The notes under the pieces are model-generated. The model was given only the letters and a program-made list of their open reading frames with translations. It ran no database searches and was not told the DNA's origin. A DNA stretch of 64,000 nucleotides from a virus: positions 9,371 through 73,370 of IMG/VR virus record IMGVR_UViG_3300030102_004647; one strand, written 5' to 3'. The position numbers and the translations under genes are program-made. This document shows, piece by piece, positions 4,718 to 63,270 of this stretch (position 1 is its first letter; the number at the start of each line of letters is the position of its first letter).

Positions 4718-4745
4718 ATTATACCGCTATCGGAAATCTTGTCAA
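4718..4745 (-). promoter_or_regulatory. Sigma70-type promoter P1 with CCGATA spacer element
   Basis: On the minus strand TTGACA (4745-4740) and TATAAT (4723-4718), both perfect consensus, are separated by 16 bp. The spacer ends in CCGATAGCGG directly before the -10. Upstream of the -35 lies an A/T tract (AAAAAAAACTTTTGAGATTT), and before it the hairpin CTCCCTTTTAAGGGAG near 4783-4798. Downstream, the leader holds AAACTTTGAAACAAGGAACC ahead of the gene starting at 4674. One of six promoters of this design in the window. Confidence 0.9.
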
Positions 4746-5161: not shown

Positions 5162-5189
5162 ATTGTACCTTTATCGGTTACATTGTCAA
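5162..5189 (-). promoter_or_regulatory. Sigma70-type promoter P2 with CCGATA spacer element
   Basis: Minus strand: TTGACA (5189-5184), 16-bp spacer ending CCGATAAAGG, TACAAT (5167-5162). An A/T tract (AAAAAAACTTTTGATTTTTT) precedes the -35, as at P1, and follows a CCCTTGTTTTATAGG-like element at 5222-5237 just past the helicase gene. The leader contains AAACTTTGAAACAAGGAACA, almost the same as P1's. Confidence 0.88.
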
Positions 5190-50347: not shown

Positions 50348-51369
50348 AATCTGCTCCAGTAATTAGAACCCCAGTCGGGGAGTTTTTGTGGGGGCCAACC
50401 TTCGGCACCCGACAACGCAATAAAGGACCGCCTCTTCGCATCTGACCAACGAGACCAGAAGGCACCCTTCGGAATTTCAATGTTTGTTCCTATTATTTTT
50501 CTACCGCCGGAGTTCCATCCAGATCCCCAAGAGTTCAGGATACAAACAACCGGCTCGCCCCAGGTATCGTGTGCAATTTGCCGGTCGTCAACGGCAATGA
50601 TAGCCATCGCATGGCTCCAACTGCCGGACCTCTTAGAGAATCCATACACATCTTTTTTACTGCTCCACCCTTCACCTCCGCAGGTCGATATGCCGTATCC
50701 ATTTGCAATCATGTCGCGAACTTCTTCAAAAGATCCGCAACTGGTTGCTTGTTTGATGGCGTGCTTCATCCCTTCCTGTTTGACTGTGTCGGGGGGAGAT
50801 GTTCGTCCCCACTTCCCTGCAAGAGATGCACTGTACTTTGTGAGGTCGAATCCGAAGTCGGGCCGGTAATCTTTACGAACCCACATTCCAGACTCGTTGA
50901 CAGCCACTCGACTTGCATGATGACAGCCCCATCCATCACCACCATGATCCCGCCACCAGTAGATTGCTTCCGTGGAGAGAACGCCATTCCGCTCCCCTAC
51001 TTCTGAAACAGCGGGCGGGCCTTCGATGATGCCGGTGTCTTCGTCCGGCTTACCAGCTACAATCTCGCATGCCAGGGTTAGCAGCTGGGCATTCTTAGTG
51101 GAGTGACTGACACAGTCGCCTCGCCTCTGTGCGGGTCCAGGCATTGCCTCCGGCCAGAGCATCTCGATGCACTTAAAAGGAATCGACAGCTTGCCTTTGG
51201 CAGAGTCGGCCAGTCCGAATGCATGAGCAGCGTCAGATGCGGATGCCCACTGCATCTCATCGTTGAATTTCTCTTCTTGTTCTGGATCTGCAAACACACC
51301 TTCAAAGCCACTCTCATAAGCTTTGACCAGACTGTTGACAGTCCTCACGTTCCTGAGTCGTCTTCTCAT
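50344..51369 (-). CDS. Papain-like (C1 family) cysteine protease in the lysis cassette
   Basis: 341 residues from the ATG at 51369, coupled by ATGA to the upstream stop; an ATG at 51384 is the alternative. Catalytic Cys in RRGDCVSHSTKN (C86), His in SWSHAMAIIAVDD (H253) and Asn in ILNSWGSGWN (N279), with N-S-W-G as in papain. There is no signal peptide, so it would need the holin or another route. It lies among membrane proteins and a holin-like gene, with no lysozyme, amidase or transglycosylase in the window, so it may be the lysis enzyme acting on a protein-rich envelope. Confidence 0.85.
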   Translation of the reverse strand: MRRRLRNVRTVNSLVKAYESGFEGVFADPEQEEKFNDEMQWASASDAAHAFGLADSAKGKLSIPFKCIEMLWPEAMPGPAQRRGDCVSHSTKNAQLLTLACEIVAGKPDEDTGIIEGPPAVSEVGERNGVLSTEAIYWWRDHGGDGWGCHHASRVAVNESGMWVRKDYRPDFGFDLTKYSASLAGKWGRTSPPDTVKQEGMKHAIKQATSCGSFEEVRDMIANGYGISTCGGEGWSSKKDVYGFSKRSGSWSHAMAIIAVDDRQIAHDTWGEPVVCILNSWGSGWNSGGRKIIGTNIEIPKGAFWSRWSDAKRRSFIALSGAEGWPPQKLPDWGSNYWSRL

Positions 51370-53061: not shown

Positions 53062-53679
53062 TTATACGCATGAGTACGGCCTGATTTTTTCATTGGTTAA
53101 GTATCGCAACCTCTCGTTGCTTACATCCCAAATATCGGGCCGATCATAGTCGTCTAACGCTATGATCTTACCTTGTAAAATATCACTAGGTATTTTTTCT
53201 GTGTCGTGATAGTCAAACACATAGAAGATTTCACAATCTTCACATGGAGAATAGCCCCCCGATTTTCGATGGGTCAGCAGATCTTTGACTAAGTTATGAA
53301 CTGCGATGTCAAAGGCATGATGAAAATCATTGCTGTCGTTGTGCGTGATTACAGAAGAGAATCCGTCTGCCTCTTGCAGCATATTGTGCAATCGTAAGTA
53401 TGCCGGAGATAGTTCGTCCTGGCAGTACGCAAGGTGTTCGTCAATAACCTTGGACCCTTGCGGAAACGATCTTGGATCGTGATAGGTGTAGTTCCAAATA
53501 TGAAAGTTCTCGATCTCCCAGTAGTTCATCGAGCGACGAAAAGATCGACGAAGCTCCACATCCTGCCCGCCGGTCAAGCAGACCACAGTGATGTTTGAGT
53601 CGGTGGCAAACAGTGAACCTCCATACAGCACTTCGTCTCCAGGTCGAGCAACGATCATCAAATGTGTAGCTTCACTCAT
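53062..53679 (-). CDS. LmbE/PIG-L-like deacetylase
   Basis: 205 residues from the ATG at 53679 with AGGA before it. The N-terminal LMIVARPGDEVLYGGS corresponds to the usual A-H-P-D-D-E motif of PIG-L zinc deacetylases, here A-R-P-G-D-E, so one zinc-site residue (His) and one Asp are changed. Later TGG and ITHNDSNDFHHAFDIAVHNLV (H-x-D/N-x-x-x-H) keep the distal histidine region. It may still act on N-acetylated sugars, or bind without catalysis. The GT25 gene overlaps it. Confidence 0.75.
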   Translation of the reverse strand: MSEATHLMIVARPGDEVLYGGSLFATDSNITVVCLTGGQDVELRRSFRRSMNYWEIENFHIWNYTYHDPRSFPQGSKVIDEHLAYCQDELSPAYLRLHNMLQEADGFSSVITHNDSNDFHHAFDIAVHNLVKDLLTHRKSGGYSPCEDCEIFYVFDYHDTEKIPSDILQGKIIALDDYDRPDIWDVSNERLRYLTNEKIRPYSCV

Positions 53680-54553
53680 CAGGTTGGTTCCTAAATCTTT
53701 CGGGATCCCAAGCTCCTTTGACGGCACCTTGGGGATACATCATTCTGCGAAGGTATGTCAGGATGTCGGAGTGTACGGGATCGGCATCGCTTTCGGCTGC
53801 TGGTTTATTTACCCACTCAATAATCTGTTGAATATCCAATTCGTTTTGTTCGTTGTCCAGTCCGAAGATATCCGACAACGCTGTCTGAGTCGTTGCCCAG
53901 TTCCCAGCGGTTCCATAGTCTACATCTTTGCCAAGCAGATCTGAATAGGATGCCCGCTGTGCGACTAGCATCGGCTCGAAAGAATAGAACGGCATTTGAC
54001 ATTGTGCATGCCATAGACCAAGGATTTCGTCTTGAACATAGTAGTCGATGTTGTTCAGGCATTCTCCGATCATCCACGCACCGACCTTCGGACGGAACAT
54101 GTAGCAATGCATGCCAGTCGCCCCCAAGCATTTGCCGATCTTTTCGTTGATCATGATCGGGCCGACCCTGTGAAAACATCCGGCATACGCCAGTCCGTAA
54201 TCGCGGGGGAGCATTTGATAATACTTCACAAAGTCATCGAGGAACGTGTCGGGGTTCAACGGGAACGCATCGTCCTCGAAGATTAGCACTTCGTCGTGTC
54301 CTGAGTTCAACGCTTCACGCATTACGGCAATATGTGAAAGCGAACAGGCAACTGATCCCGCACTGTGCGTCTCGTCTTCTCGATACTGACCAGCTTCAAG
54401 CGGGATCCCATCTTCGGCATCCCATGCTTGAAAGCGGTCAACGTCTGTGTTTAGTAATTCAACCCACACCTCCTCAAACTGCGACCAGCGATCAGGACGC
54501 CGGTCTAGGTTGATGCAATACACTGCATCGAATAGTTCGTTTAATACGTTCAT
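53672..54553 (-). CDS. GT25-type glycosyltransferase
   Basis: 293 residues. AVYCINLDRRPDRWSQFEEV at the N-terminus, AGSVACSLSHIAVMREAL and VLIFEDDAFPLNPDTF (the D-D motif) are the three main blocks of family 25 (LPS or collagen-like galactosyltransferases). The C-terminus is longer than in minimal members. It overlaps the LmbE-like gene by 8 bp, so the two are probably made together. Confidence 0.85.
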   Translation of the reverse strand: MNVLNELFDAVYCINLDRRPDRWSQFEEVWVELLNTDVDRFQAWDAEDGIPLEAGQYREDETHSAGSVACSLSHIAVMREALNSGHDEVLIFEDDAFPLNPDTFLDDFVKYYQMLPRDYGLAYAGCFHRVGPIMINEKIGKCLGATGMHCYMFRPKVGAWMIGECLNNIDYYVQDEILGLWHAQCQMPFYSFEPMLVAQRASYSDLLGKDVDYGTAGNWATTQTALSDIFGLDNEQNELDIQQIIEWVNKPAAESDADPVHSDILTYLRRMMYPQGAVKGAWDPERFRNQPDE

Positions 54554-54625
54554 TTGGTTAACATACTATAGTTTGGTCGAAAAACAACCGCTCCTCTACG
54601 GGCGAATATAAAGCCCCTGGTTGGG

Positions 54626-54871
54626 TCAAAACCCCCTTTCAAAACGGGCTTGAAAATCTTTGTTAGCTTCGATACGAGAATCGAAGTAGTTACCGCCCGC
54701 CCAGTTGGTGTCTCCCACCCCAACCCAACCCGTTACAAATCGAGCTTGAGTGGGGTCGGCGGGATGCAGGTCAACGAGAACGATATGTCCGGCTCGCGTT
54801 CCTTCTTTAGCGGGGATCAGGCTTGAGGCGACGATCATTCCGTCGATCCTTGGTAGGCAGTCTTGTGACAT
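54626..54871 (-). CDS. Small protein of unknown function
   Basis: 81 residues from the ATG at 54871 with AAAGGGAAAG before it, a variant of the leader used by the CCGATA units (ATACTTCAACAAAGGG). The protein begins MSQDCLPRIDGMIVASSL and is beta-rich (AGHIVLVDLHP, ARFVTGWVGVG). It follows a terminator, so it has either a promoter not seen or read-through expression. Unrecognised. Confidence 0.7.
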   Translation of the reverse strand: MSQDCLPRIDGMIVASSLIPAKEGTRAGHIVLVDLHPADPTQARFVTGWVGVGDTNWAGGNYFDSRIEANKDFQARFERGF

Positions 54872-54897
54872 TGTCTTTCCCTTTGTTGAAGTATCGT

Positions 54898-54926
54898 AAA
54901 AAAAGGTTGGGGGTGTTTCCACCCCC
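54898..54926 (-). terminator. Rho-independent terminator
   Basis: Minus strand GGGGGTG-GAAA-CACCCCC (7-bp perfect stem, GNRA-type loop), then AACCTTTTTTT. It stands 7 bp past the stop of the 65-residue gene. Confidence 0.92.
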
Positions 54927-54933
54927 GCACCTC

Positions 54934-55131
54934 TTAGCAAACTCTCTCTGGCGAATTGGGTCGATGACCAACGAATTTCCCCCGCCGTCGAGCGGCACGA
55001 TTGCCACGGCCAGGGATAAAGCTCGACTTCATCTTCTTTCGCTTTAACGCTCCCCAGCACATGCGGAACGAGTCAGACGAAAAACCATACTGTCGGCCAA
55101 TCCGCACAACAAACTGATAATCCTCTAACAT
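54934..55131 (-). CDS. 65-residue basic protein in its own transcription unit
   Basis: Begins MLEDYQFVVRIGRQYGFSSDSF at the ATG at 55131 behind CAACAAGGAGATGAGACA. Strongly basic (ALKRKKMKSSFIPGRGNRAARRRGKF), so nucleic-acid binding is likely. Promoter P5 lies 42 bp upstream and a terminator follows immediately. Its neighbour upstream on the same strand is the large ncRNA, whose terminal T-tract adjoins P5. Confidence 0.78.
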   Translation of the reverse strand: MLEDYQFVVRIGRQYGFSSDSFRMCWGALKRKKMKSSFIPGRGNRAARRRGKFVGHRPNSPERVC

Positions 55132-55172
55132 TGTCTCATCTCCTTGTTGAAGTATTGTTGACTGATGCCCTG

Positions 55173-55200
55173 ATTATACTACCGTTATCGGCAATGTAAA
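55173..55200 (-). promoter_or_regulatory. Promoter P5 with CCGATA spacer element
   Basis: TTTACA (55200-55195), 16-bp spacer containing TTGCCGATAACGGTAG, TATAAT (55178-55173). The T-tracts at the end of the ncRNA (55212-55230) stand directly upstream of the -35 and serve as A/T tract. Confidence 0.85.
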
Positions 55201-55211
55201 TCCCTAATCTT

Positions 55212-56247
55212 AAAAAAAAATAAAAAAAAAGTGGGTTCCTACTTCTGAGCAGGGTGTGAGTGAATATGCCCAGAGATTGCGGCGGCTTGTGCTTTAGGGG
55301 CTACGTTCCACTCAGGATCAATGTCCACTTTTGTGCTGCATCAGGTGGGACCGTATTAAGTTCCCAGCTGAGAGGTCTTATTTCAACCCTTCCCCATGTT
55401 CGCTCTGCATACCCCCTTCCGAACCTCTTACGAACTTAGGATCAACTCCCACGTTTGGACACTGCATAGTTTCGCTCCTCCCCACAACTGGATTGCACTC
55501 TTAGTGCGTGATGCCGAAGCACTCCCGTCACAGTTTGGCCCACTAATTAGCTCCGCACGGCCTGCCAGATTCGCACTGGAGGTCAGCTTCAAAGATCCGT
55601 ACTGGTTTATAGCATGAACCCACTCGATTGAATGACTAAGATCTTGAACCGAAACGGGGAGATTTTTGCTGATCAGGCTTATCAGGAGGCGTGTTCCGCT
55701 TTGTCTATCGCTTTCAACCCTCCTGCGAGATTGTCACACGTTCGCGATGTGCGAGTCCCGTCTGGCCGAATTACACGGCTCAAGATCTTAGCCACTCGGA
55801 GTGTATTGGATGGCTGACTCGTAGGGGAGTTCAACCCCCCGACACTGCATCCGAAAGTGAAACGCTGTAATACGTTTCAGGATGCGGTTGTTCAACATCG
55901 TCATGTCGAACCCCGATTGTCCATTTACTTTCAGAAGTTACATCAGTGCCGCTTGCACAAGCGAGCCATTCAATACACTCCATCGAGTGTGAGAGTAGCA
56001 GACTCAACGCTTCACTTCTCCGGTGCTTGACTGTAAGAGCTACTCCGGTCGAGGATTTTTAATCTTGCGAATCATGCCTCATGTTTTCACACTTTGCAGA
56101 AGCGTTGAGCTTGCTACTCTCGAAGTTTTGTCGTACTGGAAACCAGCCGGTGGGTACTTCTCCTCGACTCAATCGTCGTGACCCGTGAGTGATGTCGCTT
56201 GTTTCATTCCATGTAAGTGAGTCACTCAACTCACACTCAACTCTCAT
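55212..56247 (-). ncRNA. Large (about 1,035 nt) structured noncoding RNA
   Basis: No protein gene fits this stretch. A CCGATA promoter (56255-56282) puts the 5' end near 56247, and T9-A-T9 at 55230-55212 marks the 3' end. A terminal helix closes the molecule: 56229-56243 with 55247-55261 (13 of 15 pairs). Inner helices seen: 56099-56121 with 55991-56013 (21 of 23 pairs with a tandem AG/GA internal loop); 55777-55793 with 55634-55650 (17 pairs, two G-U); 55683-55689 with 55719-55725; hairpins 55975-55990, 55950-55963, 55890-55911, 55847-55885 (two stacked stems), 55824-55840, 55511-55522 (C-UUCG-G loop) and 55495-55507. Not a tRNA, rRNA or tmRNA that I can recognise. Size and build recall the phage-borne giant RNAs GOLLD and ROOL; identity with either is untested. 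Confidence 0.85.
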
Positions 56248-56254
56248 GTTCTTA

Positions 56255-56282
56255 ATATTACCATTATCGGAAGCATTGTCAA
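56255..56282 (-). promoter_or_regulatory. Promoter P6 of the ncRNA, with CCGATA spacer element
   Basis: TTGACA (56282-56277), 16-bp spacer ending CCGATAATGG, TAATAT (56260-56255). A second, inverted copy of the element (CCGATAGCGG on the plus strand, 56315-56324) and A/T-rich sequence lie upstream. There is no leader with ACAAGGA, as expected for an RNA that is not translated. Confidence 0.85.
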
Positions 56283-56283
56283 G

Positions 56284-56428
56284 AGAAATCCAGACAATCT
56301 GAGAAAATAGTTTGCCGATAGCGGTTTAACCCTATAAAACAAGGGAAAACTATTTTCAACTATTTTTAGAAAAGTGCAGATGTCTGCACATCCGTACAGG
56401 TAATTTTTCCGTTTTCGGATGATTGAAA
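56284..56428 (-). promoter_or_regulatory. Upstream control region of the ncRNA promoter
   Basis: 145 bp with no gene. In order on the minus strand: a small TCCG-AAAA-CGGA stem next to the stop of the GT-like gene; the 16-bp palindrome GTGCAGATGTCTGCAC (56374-56389); A/T tracts; the CCCTTGTTTTATAGGG element (56330-56345); and an inverted CCGATAGCGG (56315-56324). Confidence 0.6.
56374..56389. promoter_or_regulatory. Copy of the dispersed 16-bp palindrome
   Basis: GTGCAGATGTCTGCAC on the plus strand, about 90 bp upstream of the ncRNA -35. The minus strand continues with TTTTCT, so it could also act as a weak terminator for the gene at 56429-57283. Confidence 0.6.
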
Positions 56429-57283
56429 TTAGGTTGACACTGTTTCCAAATGATTTAAAAGATCTTGAAGACCTTGTGATCTTTGCGAACCTCTCAACAA
56501 ATTATGTCGATCACCTTCGGGATTGCCGGAGGGTAATCTGCAAATGTATCCGATGAGTTTTACTTCACCATAAAACTTTGAAGGATCTTGAACTGCTTTC
56601 TTTCTCATCTCTGGTGCCCAGTGATCCCACAGCCCTAACAAACCAAGTCGGTACAACAACTCTACTTTGTCGGCGTTGCCATACATGCAATCTTCGTTGA
56701 ACTCTTTGTCGTGATGCTTTGTGAATGCAAGTTGTAACTCTGTCATGCCAATGCTTCGGTGTGTTCCGAAATCATATTCTGATTTTAGAATCGGCGGGTC
56801 GGTCAAAAAAGTATCGATGTTGGCAACTCTCCATGTTGGGAAAGCAAAGTACCCGTCTTCAGGATTGTCTTCTGCTAACATGCGAAACTGCATCCAACCG
56901 TCTTCTCTAAAAAACATCCCGCCGTCTTCGGGGCAACACACATCTGCACCATGATCGAAACTAATATCGAGGCAATGATTGCGTGCCCGATTTACGTTAG
57001 TGATATATTTTAATTTCGCACTGGCAGATGGAAGGCTATCGAACTCCTCACGGAAAAAAGGAATGTGATAAATACATTCTTTGGGAACTCCGTGTTCATG
57101 CAACAAGTTGACGATGTTTATACATTTTCGATTGTCAACGATTCGGTTCAGCAACCACATCTTGCGGGTCATGCCAAACTCTTTTTCATTCTCAAGGATG
57201 TACTTCAAATTCTGAAGCGTCTGCCCCTTCGGATGTCTGGGGGGAAGATCGTTTCCAAGTATTCGCCACAGGTCAAACTTCAT
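56429..57283 (-). CDS. Glycosyltransferase-like protein
   Basis: 284 residues. The N-terminus DLWRILGNDLPPRHPKGQTLQNLKYILENEKEF...MWLLNRIVD is a conserved opening in a family of GT-A-like proteins near polysaccharide genes. Then NRARNHCLDISFDHGADVCCPEDGGMFF takes the place of the G-A-x-x-x-x-x-D-D block of GT2 enzymes. First strand and acidic site are consistent with sugar transfer, but the enzyme class is inferred. Overlaps the next upstream gene by 1 bp. Confidence 0.65.
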   Translation of the reverse strand: MKFDLWRILGNDLPPRHPKGQTLQNLKYILENEKEFGMTRKMWLLNRIVDNRKCINIVNLLHEHGVPKECIYHIPFFREEFDSLPSASAKLKYITNVNRARNHCLDISFDHGADVCCPEDGGMFFREDGWMQFRMLAEDNPEDGYFAFPTWRVANIDTFLTDPPILKSEYDFGTHRSIGMTELQLAFTKHHDKEFNEDCMYGNADKVELLYRLGLLGLWDHWAPEMRKKAVQDPSKFYGEVKLIGYICRLPSGNPEGDRHNLLRGSQRSQGLQDLLNHLETVST

Positions 57284-57888
57284 TAGAGTGCCTCATGCAT
57301 TAAAGGAATGTCGGACAGGACAGATTTGTTCCAAGGCAAAAATACTGACGAGGTTTTACAATCTGCCACAATGTCTGTTTTATTTTTTGTATATTTGCCC
57401 GCCGATGAAAGTATCCACTTCGTATCAAAATAGTTGTCGGTCAAATCCCACTCATAGTCTCGTGCCTCTAGAGCAACCGGACAGATGTGCGTTCTATAAA
57501 TAGCAATGTCGGCGTCTCTCATTCTTAGGCACATATCCCAAGCAGCGTCTGATTTACGAACAATCTGTTCGTCAAACTTCCCGATTCTACACTCTACATC
57601 TCGACGCAGTCCGATCAACCTGTGATCCCCCATGTCCACAAAGCCATATCCAAAATCCAGCAAAGTCACTAGCTCCACCATGTGCTGCCTGCTAGGACGT
57701 GCCCACTGGTCACAGATTATCACATGCTGCCCACTGCTCTTAGAAATGCACTCATTCCACATTGCGGCCTGGGAATCCCACGGACCAAATAATCGCGTCC
57801 TGGGCCATTGTGCGAGCTTGAGACAGGTGACAGCCCTGTCATCGTCTGGCATTATTTTGGTAATGATTGCCGGAGTCGCCTGAGACAT
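57283..57888 (-). CDS. GT2-like protein, divergent
   Basis: 201 residues. GPWDSQAAMWNECISKSSGQHVIICDQWARPSRQHM resembles the N-x-x-x-x-x-x-x-G-x-x-I-x-x-x-D block of family 2 transferases; the rest is divergent, and the usual D-D pair is missing or changed. It lies inside the GT operon with a 50-bp overlap with the upstream GT2 gene. Sugar-related role inferred from context. Confidence 0.55.
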   Translation of the reverse strand: MSQATPAIITKIMPDDDRAVTCLKLAQWPRTRLFGPWDSQAAMWNECISKSSGQHVIICDQWARPSRQHMVELVTLLDFGYGFVDMGDHRLIGLRRDVECRIGKFDEQIVRKSDAAWDMCLRMRDADIAIYRTHICPVALEARDYEWDLTDNYFDTKWILSSAGKYTKNKTDIVADCKTSSVFLPWNKSVLSDIPLMHEAL

Positions 57889-58513
57889 CTAGTACAGCCT
57901 TCCGTAGCTTGTTCTCTATGGATCTGAACTCTGATCGAGTTGCGGATCCTATGGGGTCAAAATAATAGTGATAGAGGACTTTTTCAATTTTATAGAACCT
58001 CTCTACTTTGTCGGCCATCTTCTCGGCCCAGGCTGAGTCTTCCCCGAAGTCCTGGTCAGGGAACGGACAGCCCTCGGTCAATTTACGTCTCCAAACATTA
58101 GTATGTGATCCCTTCGCAATATGAACATCCTCGGTGATATATCCGGCAGTTACTAGTCGAGGATCGTATGTGCAAAGTATATCACGTTGCAAACCTCCAT
58201 GATGAAGCATCAGATCGTACTGTATTACGTCCACCCCTGGATTTGAACCTATAGCTTTCAAAATGGAATCGACGTAGTCGGTCGATATTTGATCATCGTC
58301 GTCTACGAAAGTAATATATTCGCCCGTTGCCATTCCCATCAACAGGTTCCGCTTTGTGCCGACAGTATGCACTCGATTGTCCATCAGTGCGAGGATCTCC
58401 ACATCTTCGCGGCCCGTGGTCTGATCCTGCAATTCTGCGACCATCTCGGGAAAGTGTTTTCCCAGTCGGTCGGGAATGGTCGTGATTAAGATCGAGAGTT
58501 TTCGGGTTCCCAT
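57839..58513 (-). CDS. GT2-type glycosyltransferase
   Basis: 224 residues from the ATG at 58513 (MGTRKLSILITTIPDRLGKHF). The blocks LSILITTIPDR, GTKRNLLMGMATGEYITFVDDDDQI (D-D-D-D near residue 70) and GEDSAWAEKMADKV fit family 2. A start at 58576 would overlap the upstream gene by 91 bp instead of 28. Member of the radical SAM-GT operon. Confidence 0.85.
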   Translation of the reverse strand: MGTRKLSILITTIPDRLGKHFPEMVAELQDQTTGREDVEILALMDNRVHTVGTKRNLLMGMATGEYITFVDDDDQISTDYVDSILKAIGSNPGVDVIQYDLMLHHGGLQRDILCTYDPRLVTAGYITEDVHIAKGSHTNVWRRKLTEGCPFPDQDFGEDSAWAEKMADKVERFYKIEKVLYHYYFDPIGSATRSEFRSIENKLRKAVLDVSGDSGNHYQNNARR

Positions 58514-59364
58514 ATTCCTGGGATCTTGCTTCGCTCCTGCAAGTGTCTGGTGAAGGTGCATGGGTGTTCTTTCCAATTTTTAGGTGTAAGCCAATTGTTG
58601 TATTTCTGAGAGATAGGAGATCCGGCAAACCAGTGGATCCCCACCTGACTCGGAGGAAGTTCATGACTCCACTCCCATATTTGCTCGATGCCTCTCCAGT
58701 TCCAAGGGTAAACATCTTCCCCAGGAGAAGGTGTAAAAAGACGATGGTTGTACCTCTCCATGATCCGTTGAGCCATGAAGTGTCCAGGGGAATGAGGTCG
58801 TATCTTTAAAATCTGACAGATTCGGTTGGTGCCAAAATCTTGATATTGAGAAGGCTCACCCCCGTCTTTACAACTGTTATACATAAGCTCAAAAAACTTT
58901 AGTCCTGGCTTGCATCCCAAGAATCCAATAGTAAAGTCTCCGCAAGGCAAAGGTGCAACAAGATCAGAGGACGCACACTTGTGAAGTAGGTCGTCCATAG
59001 GATGCATGTACAGGATATCCATGTCGCTGTACCAGCCACCGTGTTCGTGTAACACTTTCCACTGGTACATATCGCACTGATGCACAGGATCCAAGTTTTC
59101 TGGAAGATCAACTGCTTTGACTGTTATAGGAAGATTGTATGCATCATGCATCCAGTCCGGCCCGTCATATCCGCAGAAGTCTTGTTGCTCTTCCGATGTC
59201 CACGACTTCTTGGACTTTGAATTTCTCGACACATACAAAGTTGTTTCCCAGCTTGGATTGTGAAGACAAAAAGTTTGCAGTGTCAGATACCGTAGCCACG
59301 ACATCTTCCCGCCCGCCCAAAAAAAACACATTCTCTTGGGTATAGTTGTAACCTTATTTGACAC
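58486..59364 (-). CDS. GT32-type glycosyltransferase (DXD sugar-binding)
   Basis: 292 residues, starting at the GTG at 59364 that overlaps the upstream TAG (TAGTG), with AGGAGG 9 nt ahead; another GTG is at 59370. IPKRMCFFWAGGKMSWLRYLTLQT at the start and HEHGGWYSDMDILYMHPMDDL (the DXD of Gly_transf_sug) define family 32, capsular or mannosyl-type transferases. FDFGTNRICQILKIRPHSPGHF-like segments follow (YQDFGTNRICQIL). Confidence 0.85.
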   Translation of the reverse strand: MSNKVTTIPKRMCFFWAGGKMSWLRYLTLQTFCLHNPSWETTLYVSRNSKSKKSWTSEEQQDFCGYDGPDWMHDAYNLPITVKAVDLPENLDPVHQCDMYQWKVLHEHGGWYSDMDILYMHPMDDLLHKCASSDLVAPLPCGDFTIGFLGCKPGLKFFELMYNSCKDGGEPSQYQDFGTNRICQILKIRPHSPGHFMAQRIMERYNHRLFTPSPGEDVYPWNWRGIEQIWEWSHELPPSQVGIHWFAGSPISQKYNNWLTPKNWKEHPCTFTRHLQERSKIPGIWEPENSRS

Positions 59365-60104
59365 TACCACGGTCCTCCTGACGCCTCCCACTTAATCTCT
59401 CCCGCCTCGGCCTGAGCTTTCTTTCGTTCATACAACTCTTTCGAGGGTATTACTAAACTACTCAGACCTTGAGGTCGATGATGATTCTGGTGGTAGCCGA
59501 CAATTTGAGATGTAAAGACTGGTTTTAATCCCAGCCCATGGATTAAACAATCACCGAACCAATCGTCATCGTATCCCGGTTCGGTGAACTCTTCGTCATT
59601 GCCCCCAACAGCATACAGATCTTTCTTCCACAACGCTCCCAAAAAAAAGAAAGGTCGTCTGTAGCTAGGGCTAGTGTATTCCATCAAAATATTAAACTCT
59701 GGAGGAACCCCTTCGATGTTGAACACAGTTGCAATAACAAATTCTTTCGGGTTCAAAGCGTAGCACAAATCTTGAATAGCATTCCCTCGGTGTATTACGT
59801 CATCGGACTGGGCGATAATTATTTCGCCCTTCGCGTAACGATACGCATGATTTCGAGCAACCGAAGGATTTCGATATCGAGAGTTTTCTAATCGGTGAAG
59901 TTTAAAATTTGCATATCGTTCCCACTGCTTACACATCCACCACGTCTCGTCGTCGGATCCATCATCTACGACAATCACCTCAAACTGTGGCGAATCATTT
60001 ATCTGAGCATAGATAGATTCAAGAACTCGTTTAAGATACTCCTCTTTGTTTTTAGTTGCAATGCATATCGATGCAGTCACACTTCCACATGTTCGGCAAC
60101 TCAT
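59364..60104 (-). CDS. GT2-type glycosyltransferase
   Basis: 246 residues. TASICIATKNKEEYLKRVLESI, FEVIVVDDGSDDETWW, NPSVARNHAYRYAKGEIIIAQSDDVIH and GYDDDWFGDCLIHG give the four GT2 blocks, including the acid pairs for metal and sugar nucleotide. It overlaps the methyltransferase gene by 4 bp and the GT32 gene by 1 bp. It is the best preserved GT2 of the operon. Confidence 0.9.
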   Translation of the reverse strand: MSCRTCGSVTASICIATKNKEEYLKRVLESIYAQINDSPQFEVIVVDDGSDDETWWMCKQWERYANFKLHRLENSRYRNPSVARNHAYRYAKGEIIIAQSDDVIHRGNAIQDLCYALNPKEFVIATVFNIEGVPPEFNILMEYTSPSYRRPFFFLGALWKKDLYAVGGNDEEFTEPGYDDDWFGDCLIHGLGLKPVFTSQIVGYHQNHHRPQGLSSLVIPSKELYERKKAQAEAGEIKWEASGGPW

Positions 60105-60658
60105 TGATCCTCCTTCGGCTCGTCAGAAAAGCCTCCACCGTAAAAGTAAGCACCTACTATGTGCTTGGCAAACAAATGCACAGGAGTGTCGTCGCCCGTG
60201 TCCTTCTGCAATCTAGTCACCTCAAACTCTTGCTGTAGAAGTTCCCATTCTTGAAACCCACATCTATGTTTTTGAAGAGGATTGATGCCGTGACCCAGGT
60301 CATCGTTTTCAGACTGCTCCACAAACCCTTCGGGTGTGTTTATAAAAACATACTTTCTTGCAATTGACTTTGATTTGTTAATTACCTCCAAAGCCTCTTC
60401 TTTTTCTAAATGCTCAAGAACATCGAGAAGTAGTACATGGTCCCACGACTTGTCGGGAAACATATGCACTACCCCTGGCAAAGTTCCAATCATTGTGATC
60501 ATTCGATCCGATAAGTTGTCGAGGTACTTGGTATAAGCATCGATACCTAGATGCCTCGCTCCTATGACTCCAGTCGCGGATACCATACCGCATCCAAAGT
60601 CCAAAACAGAATCACATGGATCTAAATAGTTGAGGATCTCTTTCCCTAGCCAGTTCAT
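60101..60658 (-). CDS. SAM-dependent methyltransferase
   Basis: 185 residues. SVLDFGCGMVSATGVIGARHLGIDAY (motif I, E/D-x-G-x-G with G-C-G), WDHVLLLDVLEHLEKEEAL (motif for the D-V-L-E-H-L block) and KYVFINTPEGF fit class I methyltransferases that modify sugars or small molecules. It lies between radical SAM and GT2 genes with 4-bp overlaps. Confidence 0.85.
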   Translation of the reverse strand: MNWLGKEILNYLDPCDSVLDFGCGMVSATGVIGARHLGIDAYTKYLDNLSDRMITMIGTLPGVVHMFPDKSWDHVLLLDVLEHLEKEEALEVINKSKSIARKYVFINTPEGFVEQSENDDLGHGINPLQKHRCGFQEWELLQQEFEVTRLQKDTGDDTPVHLFAKHIVGAYFYGGGFSDEPKEDQ

Positions 60659-61761
60659 ACAAAGTCAACGTGTCTTGGTTTAGGTTCTAACGCATACAAA
60701 ATAGTTCGATTCTTATTATTAAACATACACCTCGGACAGCCTCGGGCATCAAACTTATTGAAGTTGTGCTTCTTCATGTCCGACTCCCACAGTTCTTTGA
60801 ATCTTTGATCTTTGATAGATCCGATCAGTCCTTTCTCGTTGTAAGCTAACACACAGCACCTGTACACATTCAAGTCCCCACCGATGTACGTGTTGAACTC
60901 TTGATATCCACAATAAGAGTAGTCTGGATTCTTTAGCTCTAGATCCTCTGTCCGATCACCAAAGTTGTTGAACACTTTGAAATTCTTATCGGACAGCTTC
61001 GAGGCTTCTCGAATCAACTCTTTCGCTTCATCATAGAATCCATCAAAGTAGCTGAGACCATCGTCCTGAAATATCGCAGAGATCCTGACGTTGTCCACAC
61101 CTGCTTCCTTAGCTCGGGCCGTACAATCAACAACTTCTTTCCAGTTTTCTTTGGTAACTACAAAACCAATCCCGATGATCAGATCGCAGTCCTCTTTCTC
61201 TTTTTTAGCAGCACACAGGTCGTCGATGTTTCTCCATGTTCGATGGAAATGTTGCTTTCCAATTCGCCGGATATCTGCGTAGGTGTTCTCGTTCCCTGCA
61301 TCGATAGAGAATCGAACCCACTGCCCTCGAAGATACGCTTCGATCAGTCCCTTCCGAAAGACCGCTCCGTTGCTAACAACTCCCAGACCCATACCTCTGT
61401 CCGATATTCCGTTGAATATTTCGATGTGGTCTGGATGTACAGTCGGCTCCCCTCCCCCTGTTACTTGTATCGCTCCGACTCCCATCTCCTGACAGTCGTC
61501 AAGGATCTCGAACACTTTCGGGCCTTCGATCATTCTGTTTGGATTGTTAGTCCCAACCTTGGCAAGTTCGGAGTCGCCAGCAAATAATTGGTTGGATGTG
61601 TAGCCAGACATCCGATACGCACAGAACGAACAATCGTGATTGCACAAGTCGGAAATAATTAGCTGGACTTGGGTTGGGACTATCTGCACACCCGACTTGA
61701 TACTATCTATCCGCTCTCGGTGATGTATCACTTTTAGGGGGCTGTATGGAGATCCTTCCAT
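60655..61761 (-). CDS. Radical SAM protein with SPASM-like C-terminus
   Basis: 368 residues. CNHDCSFC (C40-x3-C44-x2-C47) binds the SAM cluster; GAIQVTGGGEPTVHPDH is the G-G-E-P motif. A C-terminal cysteine set (CGYQEF...YRCCVLAYN...CPRCMFNN) suggests one or two auxiliary clusters, as in SPASM proteins that modify peptides or sugars. First gene of the GT operon. A ribosome binding site GGAAG stands six nt before the ATG at 61761. Confidence 0.88.
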   Translation of the reverse strand: MEGSPYSPLKVIHHRERIDSIKSGVQIVPTQVQLIISDLCNHDCSFCAYRMSGYTSNQLFAGDSELAKVGTNNPNRMIEGPKVFEILDDCQEMGVGAIQVTGGGEPTVHPDHIEIFNGISDRGMGLGVVSNGAVFRKGLIEAYLRGQWVRFSIDAGNENTYADIRRIGKQHFHRTWRNIDDLCAAKKEKEDCDLIIGIGFVVTKENWKEVVDCTARAKEAGVDNVRISAIFQDDGLSYFDGFYDEAKELIREASKLSDKNFKVFNNFGDRTEDLELKNPDYSYCGYQEFNTYIGGDLNVYRCCVLAYNEKGLIGSIKDQRFKELWESDMKKHNFNKFDARGCPRCMFNNKNRTILYALEPKPRHVDFV

Positions 61762-61836: not shown

Positions 61837-62175
61837 GTGGGGAACAAAGAACGGATTATACAGGTTGCATGGAAAAAGTGGAGGCTTATTTTTGACAAGG
61901 CTCTACCTCGCGACACTGACGGAAGCACCGACCCTCCTACAAAAAAACGTAAATCTATACGGATCAAGGATAATCTAGTAGGCCAGGAATTTCTGGAAAC
62001 CTACCTGCATGAAACCCATCACGCTGGGAATGACTCGATTTGTGAAGATTATGTTGAGCAAATAGCCCACGATCAAGCCGCTTCGTTTTGCTATCGAGAT
62101 TGTATCGAACGATTTTTGGGGTGTCCTCGCATTGTTGCGATGGTTGAGGAAATTCTAGACTCTCGAAAAAAATAA
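61837..62175 (+). CDS. Small HExxH zinc-site protein
   Basis: 112 residues from the GTG at 61837, with GGAGG 7 nt ahead. LETYLHETHHAGND (about residue 55) is a HExxH site, followed by EDYVEQIAHDQAASFCY with a further acidic pair, as in a small phage metalloprotein family of unknown function. It and the next gene are the only rightward genes of the window. Confidence 0.68.
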   Translation: MGNKERIIQVAWKKWRLIFDKALPRDTDGSTDPPTKKRKSIRIKDNLVGQEFLETYLHETHHAGNDSICEDYVEQIAHDQAASFCYRDCIERFLGCPRIVAMVEEILDSRKK

Positions 62176-62226
62176 CAAGCTAACAAGGTGGAACCTTGTA
62201 GCTTCAGTGTAAGGAGACACAAACAA

Positions 62227-63270
62227 ATGGCTAACCATACGCCAGGATTTAGGTGGTCCGAGGAAAAAGAGAAATACATCAAAGAGCTTCTGAGAAAACA
62301 TCCAGACACCTCTTTGCGAGAACTCGCTGACTACTTTGGCATCTCTTCCAATGCAGTCCGCAAAAAAATCAAGAAGATGGGATTCACACTTCGGGGACTT
62401 CGGGCCGGTGAGTTTTTTATCGAGCCGGAGTCCGAACCGCAAGAGGTCGAGATGTCGGAAGTGTGGTCTGCTTACGAAAAGCAAAACGAGATCAAGATTG
62501 CCAAGCATAAGAACGATGGCAGATACATCGCAGAGTTTCCCGAAGAGGTTATCGCGGTGTCTTTTATTAGTGACCAGCACATAGCTGGAAATAACATCGT
62601 AGCTCTCAAACGAATGAGAGAGGATGCGGAGTTGATTGCAAACACTCCCGGCCTGTACGCATGCCTGGGAGGTGATTCTATCGACAACCATATCAAACAT
62701 CGTGCTGCTGTTCTCGCGGCCCGAACTACTCCAGGCGATCAGTACGAACTATTCGATTACTACTTGAGTCTGTTCTCCGACAAGATCCTTGGAGTGATCA
62801 CAGGCAACCATGACGACTGGACTCCCCAGGTCTCCGGTACGGATGTGATCGCATCCATTTGTGCGAAGCACGGGATCTCTTTCAGCAGTGACGAAGCTCG
62901 GATCGCAGCGTATGTCGGTGATCAAGAATATCGACTTGCATGGCGTCACAAGTATCGCTTCGGTAGTCAGATGAACCAAACACACAGCCCGAAACAGTGG
63001 TATAGATTCGGGCCGGAACCATTTGATGTCGGCGTAGTATGCCACCATCATGAAACGGCCATCGAGGCTTGCATAATGCACGGCAAGCAAACCTGGGTCT
63101 GTCGGCCAGGATCCTACCAGATCAATTCATCCTATGGTCGCCAGGGAGGCTTCAACGATTCTCTGCCCGCCTGCCCGACATTCTTACTGTATCCGCACCA
63201 CAGACGAATCATCGGATTCCCAGACGTTCGTGATGCAGTGATTACTCTGAACGCTGAGAGGAATCAGTGA
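62227..63270 (+). CDS. HTH-metallophosphoesterase fusion protein
   Basis: 347 residues from the ATG at 62227 with AAGGAG before it. N-terminal helix-turn-helix (TSLRELADYFGISSNAVRKKIKKMGF, about 27-52), then a calcineurin-type domain: SFISDQHIAGN, LGGDSIDNH, ITGNHDDW and VVCHHHETA give the D-x-H, G-D-x-x-D, G-N-H-D and H-x-H motifs. A DNA-bound phosphoesterase or nuclease, possibly acting on modified DNA or nucleotides. The gene end overlaps the next minus-strand gene by 29 bp. Confidence 0.85.
   Translation: MANHTPGFRWSEEKEKYIKELLRKHPDTSLRELADYFGISSNAVRKKIKKMGFTLRGLRAGEFFIEPESEPQEVEMSEVWSAYEKQNEIKIAKHKNDGRYIAEFPEEVIAVSFISDQHIAGNNIVALKRMREDAELIANTPGLYACLGGDSIDNHIKHRAAVLAARTTPGDQYELFDYYLSLFSDKILGVITGNHDDWTPQVSGTDVIASICAKHGISFSSDEARIAAYVGDQEYRLAWRHKYRFGSQMNQTHSPKQWYRFGPEPFDVGVVCHHHETAIEACIMHGKQTWVCRPGSYQINSSYGRQGGFNDSLPACPTFLLYPHHRRIIGFPDVRDAVITLNAERNQ

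Follow-up and report, generated by a model that had tools for sequence, protein, structure and literature searches.

Our analysis indicates that the minus strand of the window, the 64,000-nt stretch of viral DNA that was analysed, probably carries a stand-alone gene for a trans-acting structured RNA. The best reading of the sequence evidence is a new class of large, modular structured phage RNA. The first-pass annotation had proposed a large noncoding RNA with its own promoter in this place. This proposal is supported by a homologue with compensated base pairs, an insertion that respects a junction of the fold, insertions and deletions that break reading frames, and the insulation of the unit by its promoter and terminators.

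The window comes from a 78,953-bp IMG/VR record (G000), possibly partial, of an uncultured bacterial virus. G000 encodes a family-A DNA polymerase, a Toprim primase-like protein, a DnaB helicase, portal, head and terminase proteins, and a glycosyltransferase cluster. A search for a close cultured phage relative found none, and no tRNA gene was found in the 64-kb window. The RNA unit (56282-55212, minus strand) is poor in ORFs and lies between two protein genes. It had been described as the sole stretch over 300 bp without a protein gene; when only ORFs of at least 75 aa are taken as genes, 55061-56428 is indeed the sole gap in the window that exceeds 250 bp.

On the upstream side, the preceding gene ends in an intrinsic terminator, GTGCAGACATCTGCAC-TTTTC (56394-56374, minus strand), which insulates the RNA unit; the same hairpin is present in the homologue described below. 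The promoter noticed earlier was found at 56282-56255 (minus strand) as TTGACA-N16-TAATAT with a CCGATAATGG-containing spacer, and the predicted start is at about 56247-56249. The phage promoter family is defined by TTGACA, CCGATA inside the spacer and then GG-TA. The RNA promoter matches this family with no mismatch (0.01 matches expected). The strict form occurs three times in the window against 0.01 expected, and the other two occurrences, at 5189 and 4745, lie ahead of the genes for the primase and DNA polymerase. Promoters with the CCGATA spacer are located at window positions 4745, 5189, 55200 and 56282 and at positions 73604 and 74925 of the G000 record; none appeared in the head/terminase gene region. 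The CCGATA element is possibly the operator of a regulator. Since promoters of this family head replication genes and none lies in the head/terminase region, we infer that the RNA would be expressed early or in the replication phase. The predicted 3′ end is the T9-A-T9 tract, which is present at 55230-55212 as the annotation had stated. A compact terminator hairpin is absent just before this tract. The predicted structured noncoding RNA spans about 1.03 kb (56249-55212, minus strand).

The sole homologue found was in IMG/VR record IMGVR_UViG_3300029787_000068 (G003), which was reached through its terminase and carries the RNA at the same locus. A homologue with compensatory changes had been named beforehand as something to look for, and this is the one that was found. 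The G003 version is about 1,600 nt long, compared with about 1,000 nt in the window. It differs from the window by indels of 1, 1, 19, 6, 1 and 1, 237, 2 nt, and besides the 237-nt one most of these (1, 1, 19, 6, 1; 1, 2) disrupt reading frames. The G003 RNA also extends 390 nt past the 3′ end of the window version (z -9.3 against shuffles); a 24-bp terminator helix comes last, directly followed by a T9-A-T8 tract equivalent to that of the window. In two relatives with an 85% identical terminase, the RNA was absent at this locus, and a homologue of the upstream 284-aa gene is followed directly by reading frames. Phage and plasmid records gave no match to the RNA. When viral contigs were scanned for exact patterns taken from four pieces of the RNA, only G003 was detected; two pieces were scanned against genome contigs and gave no homologue, and scans with neighbouring proteins detected no additional carriers. 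Other exact-pattern matches were rejected as homologues, since they are mostly inside coding frames and their similarity ends at the seed.

For the covariation analysis, the structure was folded from the window alone and then applied to G003, with one hypervariable block excluded. Twelve pairs were changed on both sides in G003, and 10 of the 12 still pair; as the family has two members (G000 and G003), the covariation rests on about 10 pairs. When one strand was slid by 1-3 bases as a control, only 1-4 double changes were obtained, of which 0-2 pair. A long hairpin arm with a hypervariable tip (55991-56121, minus strand) is closed by the helix 56121-56099/56013-55991. This helix had been described as a 23-nt helix with a tandem AG/GA loop: 22 of 23 positions pair, the exception being an A.C mismatch, whereas the tandem AG/GA loop was not found. 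It holds four of these compensated pairs, with one G-U/G-C change and no broken pair in G003. The junction domain (55621-55989, minus strand) is closed by 55989-55982/55628-55621 (CACUCGAU/AUCGAGUG) and contains arms of 24 bp (55981-55956/55823-55798) and 22 bp (55797-55776/55651-55630), both on the minus strand; the 17-bp helix reported earlier is contained in the latter. Compensatory pairs in this domain are 55968:55811 and 55905:55896. The extra 237 nt of G003 form one closed multi-helix arm, GAGAGUAACCUGGGAG...CUCCCAGGUUACUCUC, which sits exactly where the two long arms meet, leaves both intact, and makes a third arm of the junction domain. The hairpin singled out for its UUCG loop is there, but the loop is UUUU in G003 and is therefore not conserved. 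The fold energy of the whole RNA is 6 SD below that of dinucleotide shuffles, compared with 3.8 SD for the opposite strand. The stability is carried by the 5′ 600 nt, where 400-nt tiles reach z of about -4.3 to -4.7; the 3′ 400-nt tiles (z +1.3 to +2.2) are not stabler than shuffles. Since similar values (-4.2 to -4.8) are also attained by four tiles from other parts of the window, energy alone is weak evidence.

The 5′ end is predicted to form an H-type pseudoknot (56186-56234, minus strand), which covaries in G003. Here a local hairpin, GUGAGU-UGAGUG-ACUCAC, has a loop that can pair with CACUCA, located 31 nt downstream of that loop, so that stem 1 is 56234-56229/56222-56217 (GUGAGU/ACUCAC) and stem 2 is 56228-56223/56191-56186 (UGAGUG/CACUCA). 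In the G003 RNA, the loop reads UGUGUG and is matched by CACACA as its partner. The same promoter type and pseudoknot module were also detected in an mRNA leader of G003 (50563-50735, plus strand) ahead of a 272-aa gene. This non-orthologous transcript keeps the flanking letters of the RNA, ACATGAGAGTTG ... TTACATGCG, and builds the pseudoknot from different letters: GGGAU/AUCCC makes the stem, and AACCAA, at a matching distance, is the pairing partner of the UUGGUU loop. Thus, the pseudoknot covaries across three sequences, and within G003 the module occurs on two transcripts. The first-pass annotation had instead paired the two ends of the RNA (56229-56243 with 55247-55261). This helix is doubtful because it competes with the better-supported pseudoknot; in G003 one of its pairs is broken and another goes from G-C to G-U. 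The concerted changes of the module favour the pseudoknot; the two structures may alternate. Another leader of G003 (L009; 52978, minus strand) starts with ACATGAGAGTT and has a hairpin loop that holds TGCTCTTTAAA, which we take to resemble the rrn boxA antitermination signal. After this hairpin there are two copies of a GCGGTTG..GGAACCGTAGAA.ATCC element.

Covariance models of GOLLD, ROOL, OLE and HEARO, whose use had been suggested with the annotation, gave no match. Among all Rfam families, which include introns, ribozymes, riboswitches and sRNAs, none reached its gathering score with the window RNA, and at E<=10 only two chance-level matches appeared (E 3.9 and 8.2). A separate search of the whole G000 record with the GOLLD model (RF02032) found it absent, and the G003 version gave nothing at E<=5. 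The annotation had left the choice between a new class and a distant member of one of the four families; with no Rfam model matching, the evidence favours a new class.

ROOL RNAs are about 600 nt long. Like them, the RNA described here is large, multi-helix and phage encoded with no known protein partner; it differs in being longer, in lacking an Rfam match and in having no tRNA island. GOLLD is also phage or prophage encoded, and many of its members exceed 800 nt. Its conserved 3′ region and variable 5′ region (PMC12286853) may have a counterpart here, a pattern drawn from two sequences only. An unrecognisably distant relative of GOLLD or ROOL would explain this pattern together with the size and the phage location, yet we consider it improbable: neither model matched at E<=10 in the window or at E<=5 in G003, and no tRNAs were found in the window, while GOLLD and ROOL are often, not always, near tRNA islands (PMC12286853). 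Further differences from GOLLD are the 5′ pseudoknot module common to an mRNA leader, and the promoter type, which suggests early rather than late expression. Another comparison is the ~800-nt noncoding RNA between ORF139 and ORF140 of ICP1, the most abundant ICP1 transcript (PMC7567579). It resembles the present case as a ~1-kb ORF-less space, in ICP1's case in a lytic phage without tRNAs, and it likewise has no Rfam family match above threshold. However, it shows no sequence similarity to the RNA described here.

The inverted repeats might instead work as DNA, for example as a replication origin or a recombination or packaging site. The opposite strand is also compensated in 8 of the 12 pairs, as expected for inverted repeats, so that the strand assignment leans on the promoter, the T tract and the energy; moreover, the promoters of the nearest kind head replication genes. 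However, the transcribed strand gives the better alignment fold (-320.8, against -270.3 for the opposite strand). The promoter and T tract bracket exactly the structured part, the pseudoknot at the transcript start is of an RNA type and recurs on an mRNA leader, and the G003 insertion is a multi-helix arm at a junction. A DNA-level element is thus a decidedly poor candidate.

A very long regulatory leader would be suggested by the next gene, which is on the same strand and begins about 80 bp past the T tract. This gene (65 aa, 54934-55131) has its own promoter at 55200-55173 (minus strand; TTTACA/TATAAT with a CCGATAACGG spacer), and therefore the RNA is not its leader. Furthermore, G003 has no adjacent 65-aa gene, yet it retains the RNA, a T tract and a promoter that serves a different gene. 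The chance that the region is a leader seems very small.

The 3′ part contains a conserved core of about 215 nt (55240-55455, minus strand), which is 98% identical in G003 and falls in the top 0.5% of windows compared between G000 and G003. The core is not unusually stable by energy; conservation marks it instead. A compact pseudoknotted core or a partner-binding surface would fit. Two like segments (GTGGRVRTTGATCCTRAG) within it were considered as a repeat and rejected, since an equally good direct repeat appears in more than half of the shuffles. That the region encodes one or more small proteins, such as a 35-codon frame at 55485 in which GGGGAGGAG precedes an internal ATG, is the least credible reading. 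The ATG has a good Shine-Dalgarno sequence and 25 codons are identical in G003, but in G003 this ATG is lost together with most of its Shine-Dalgarno. The conservation continues beyond the stop codon without any synonymous change, every change in the next small frame replaces an amino acid, and the longer minus-strand frames are broken by indels. The small frames in the core were therefore rejected as genes.

Returning to the stand-alone RNA gene, the sequences support the following model. A phage promoter of the replication-gene kind would start the transcript, and the nascent 5′ end would fold into the H-type pseudoknot, a module also carried by at least one phage mRNA. In the ~600 nt that follow, long helices would make up a branched scaffold whose junctions can accept further arms. 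The nearly invariant core would occupy the final ~215 nt, and transcription is predicted to stop at the T tract.

As for function, the RNA may be made early alongside the replication genes. The promoter-proximal pseudoknot could shield the 5′ end, or could aid RNA polymerase through a long untranslated structured template. The latter role would be similar to that of put, which is used on two early HK022 transcripts. The put RNA counteracts pausing and termination in early genes (PMC9378689). Both are structured elements at the very start of phage transcripts, but the module here is a predicted H-type pseudoknot whereas put is an antiterminator of early genes, and we regard a put-like role as doubtful. 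The variable scaffold would present the invariant core, which may make a specific contact with a protein, a nucleic acid or its own copy. GOLLD and ROOL form RNA-only cages (PMC12286853). By analogy with these RNAs and the ICP1 RNA, action as an abundant architectural particle appears the likeliest mode, and self-assembly is a step that we propose tentatively. The full combination, a new giant (1.0-1.6 kb) phage RNA class that self-assembles via its 3′ core, is made early, is read through with the aid of the pseudoknot and shares this module with an mRNA, is unlikely to be right in every part.

Very few bacterial or phage RNAs are known to reach such a size, and what GOLLD and ROOL do is not yet settled. 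If a phage with no detected tRNAs carries an unrelated class built on the same plan, a variable scaffold with an invariant 3′ core, this would point to more than one origin of large architectural RNAs among phages. The G000/G003 pair offers helices and a core that are already delimited, as well as a naturally occurring domain insertion. The shared 5′ pseudoknot poses a separate, small question.

The RNA gene is flanked on both sides by a run of glycosyltransferase genes and a radical SAM/SPASM protein (window 53672-61761). Beyond this run, two putative frames, of which perhaps only one is real, overlap on opposite strands, at 62155-62700 (minus) and 62188-63270 (plus). The plus frame has a weak HTH match, and the stretch 62473-63261 shows 72% identity to G001; for the minus frame, identity in G003 is 54%.
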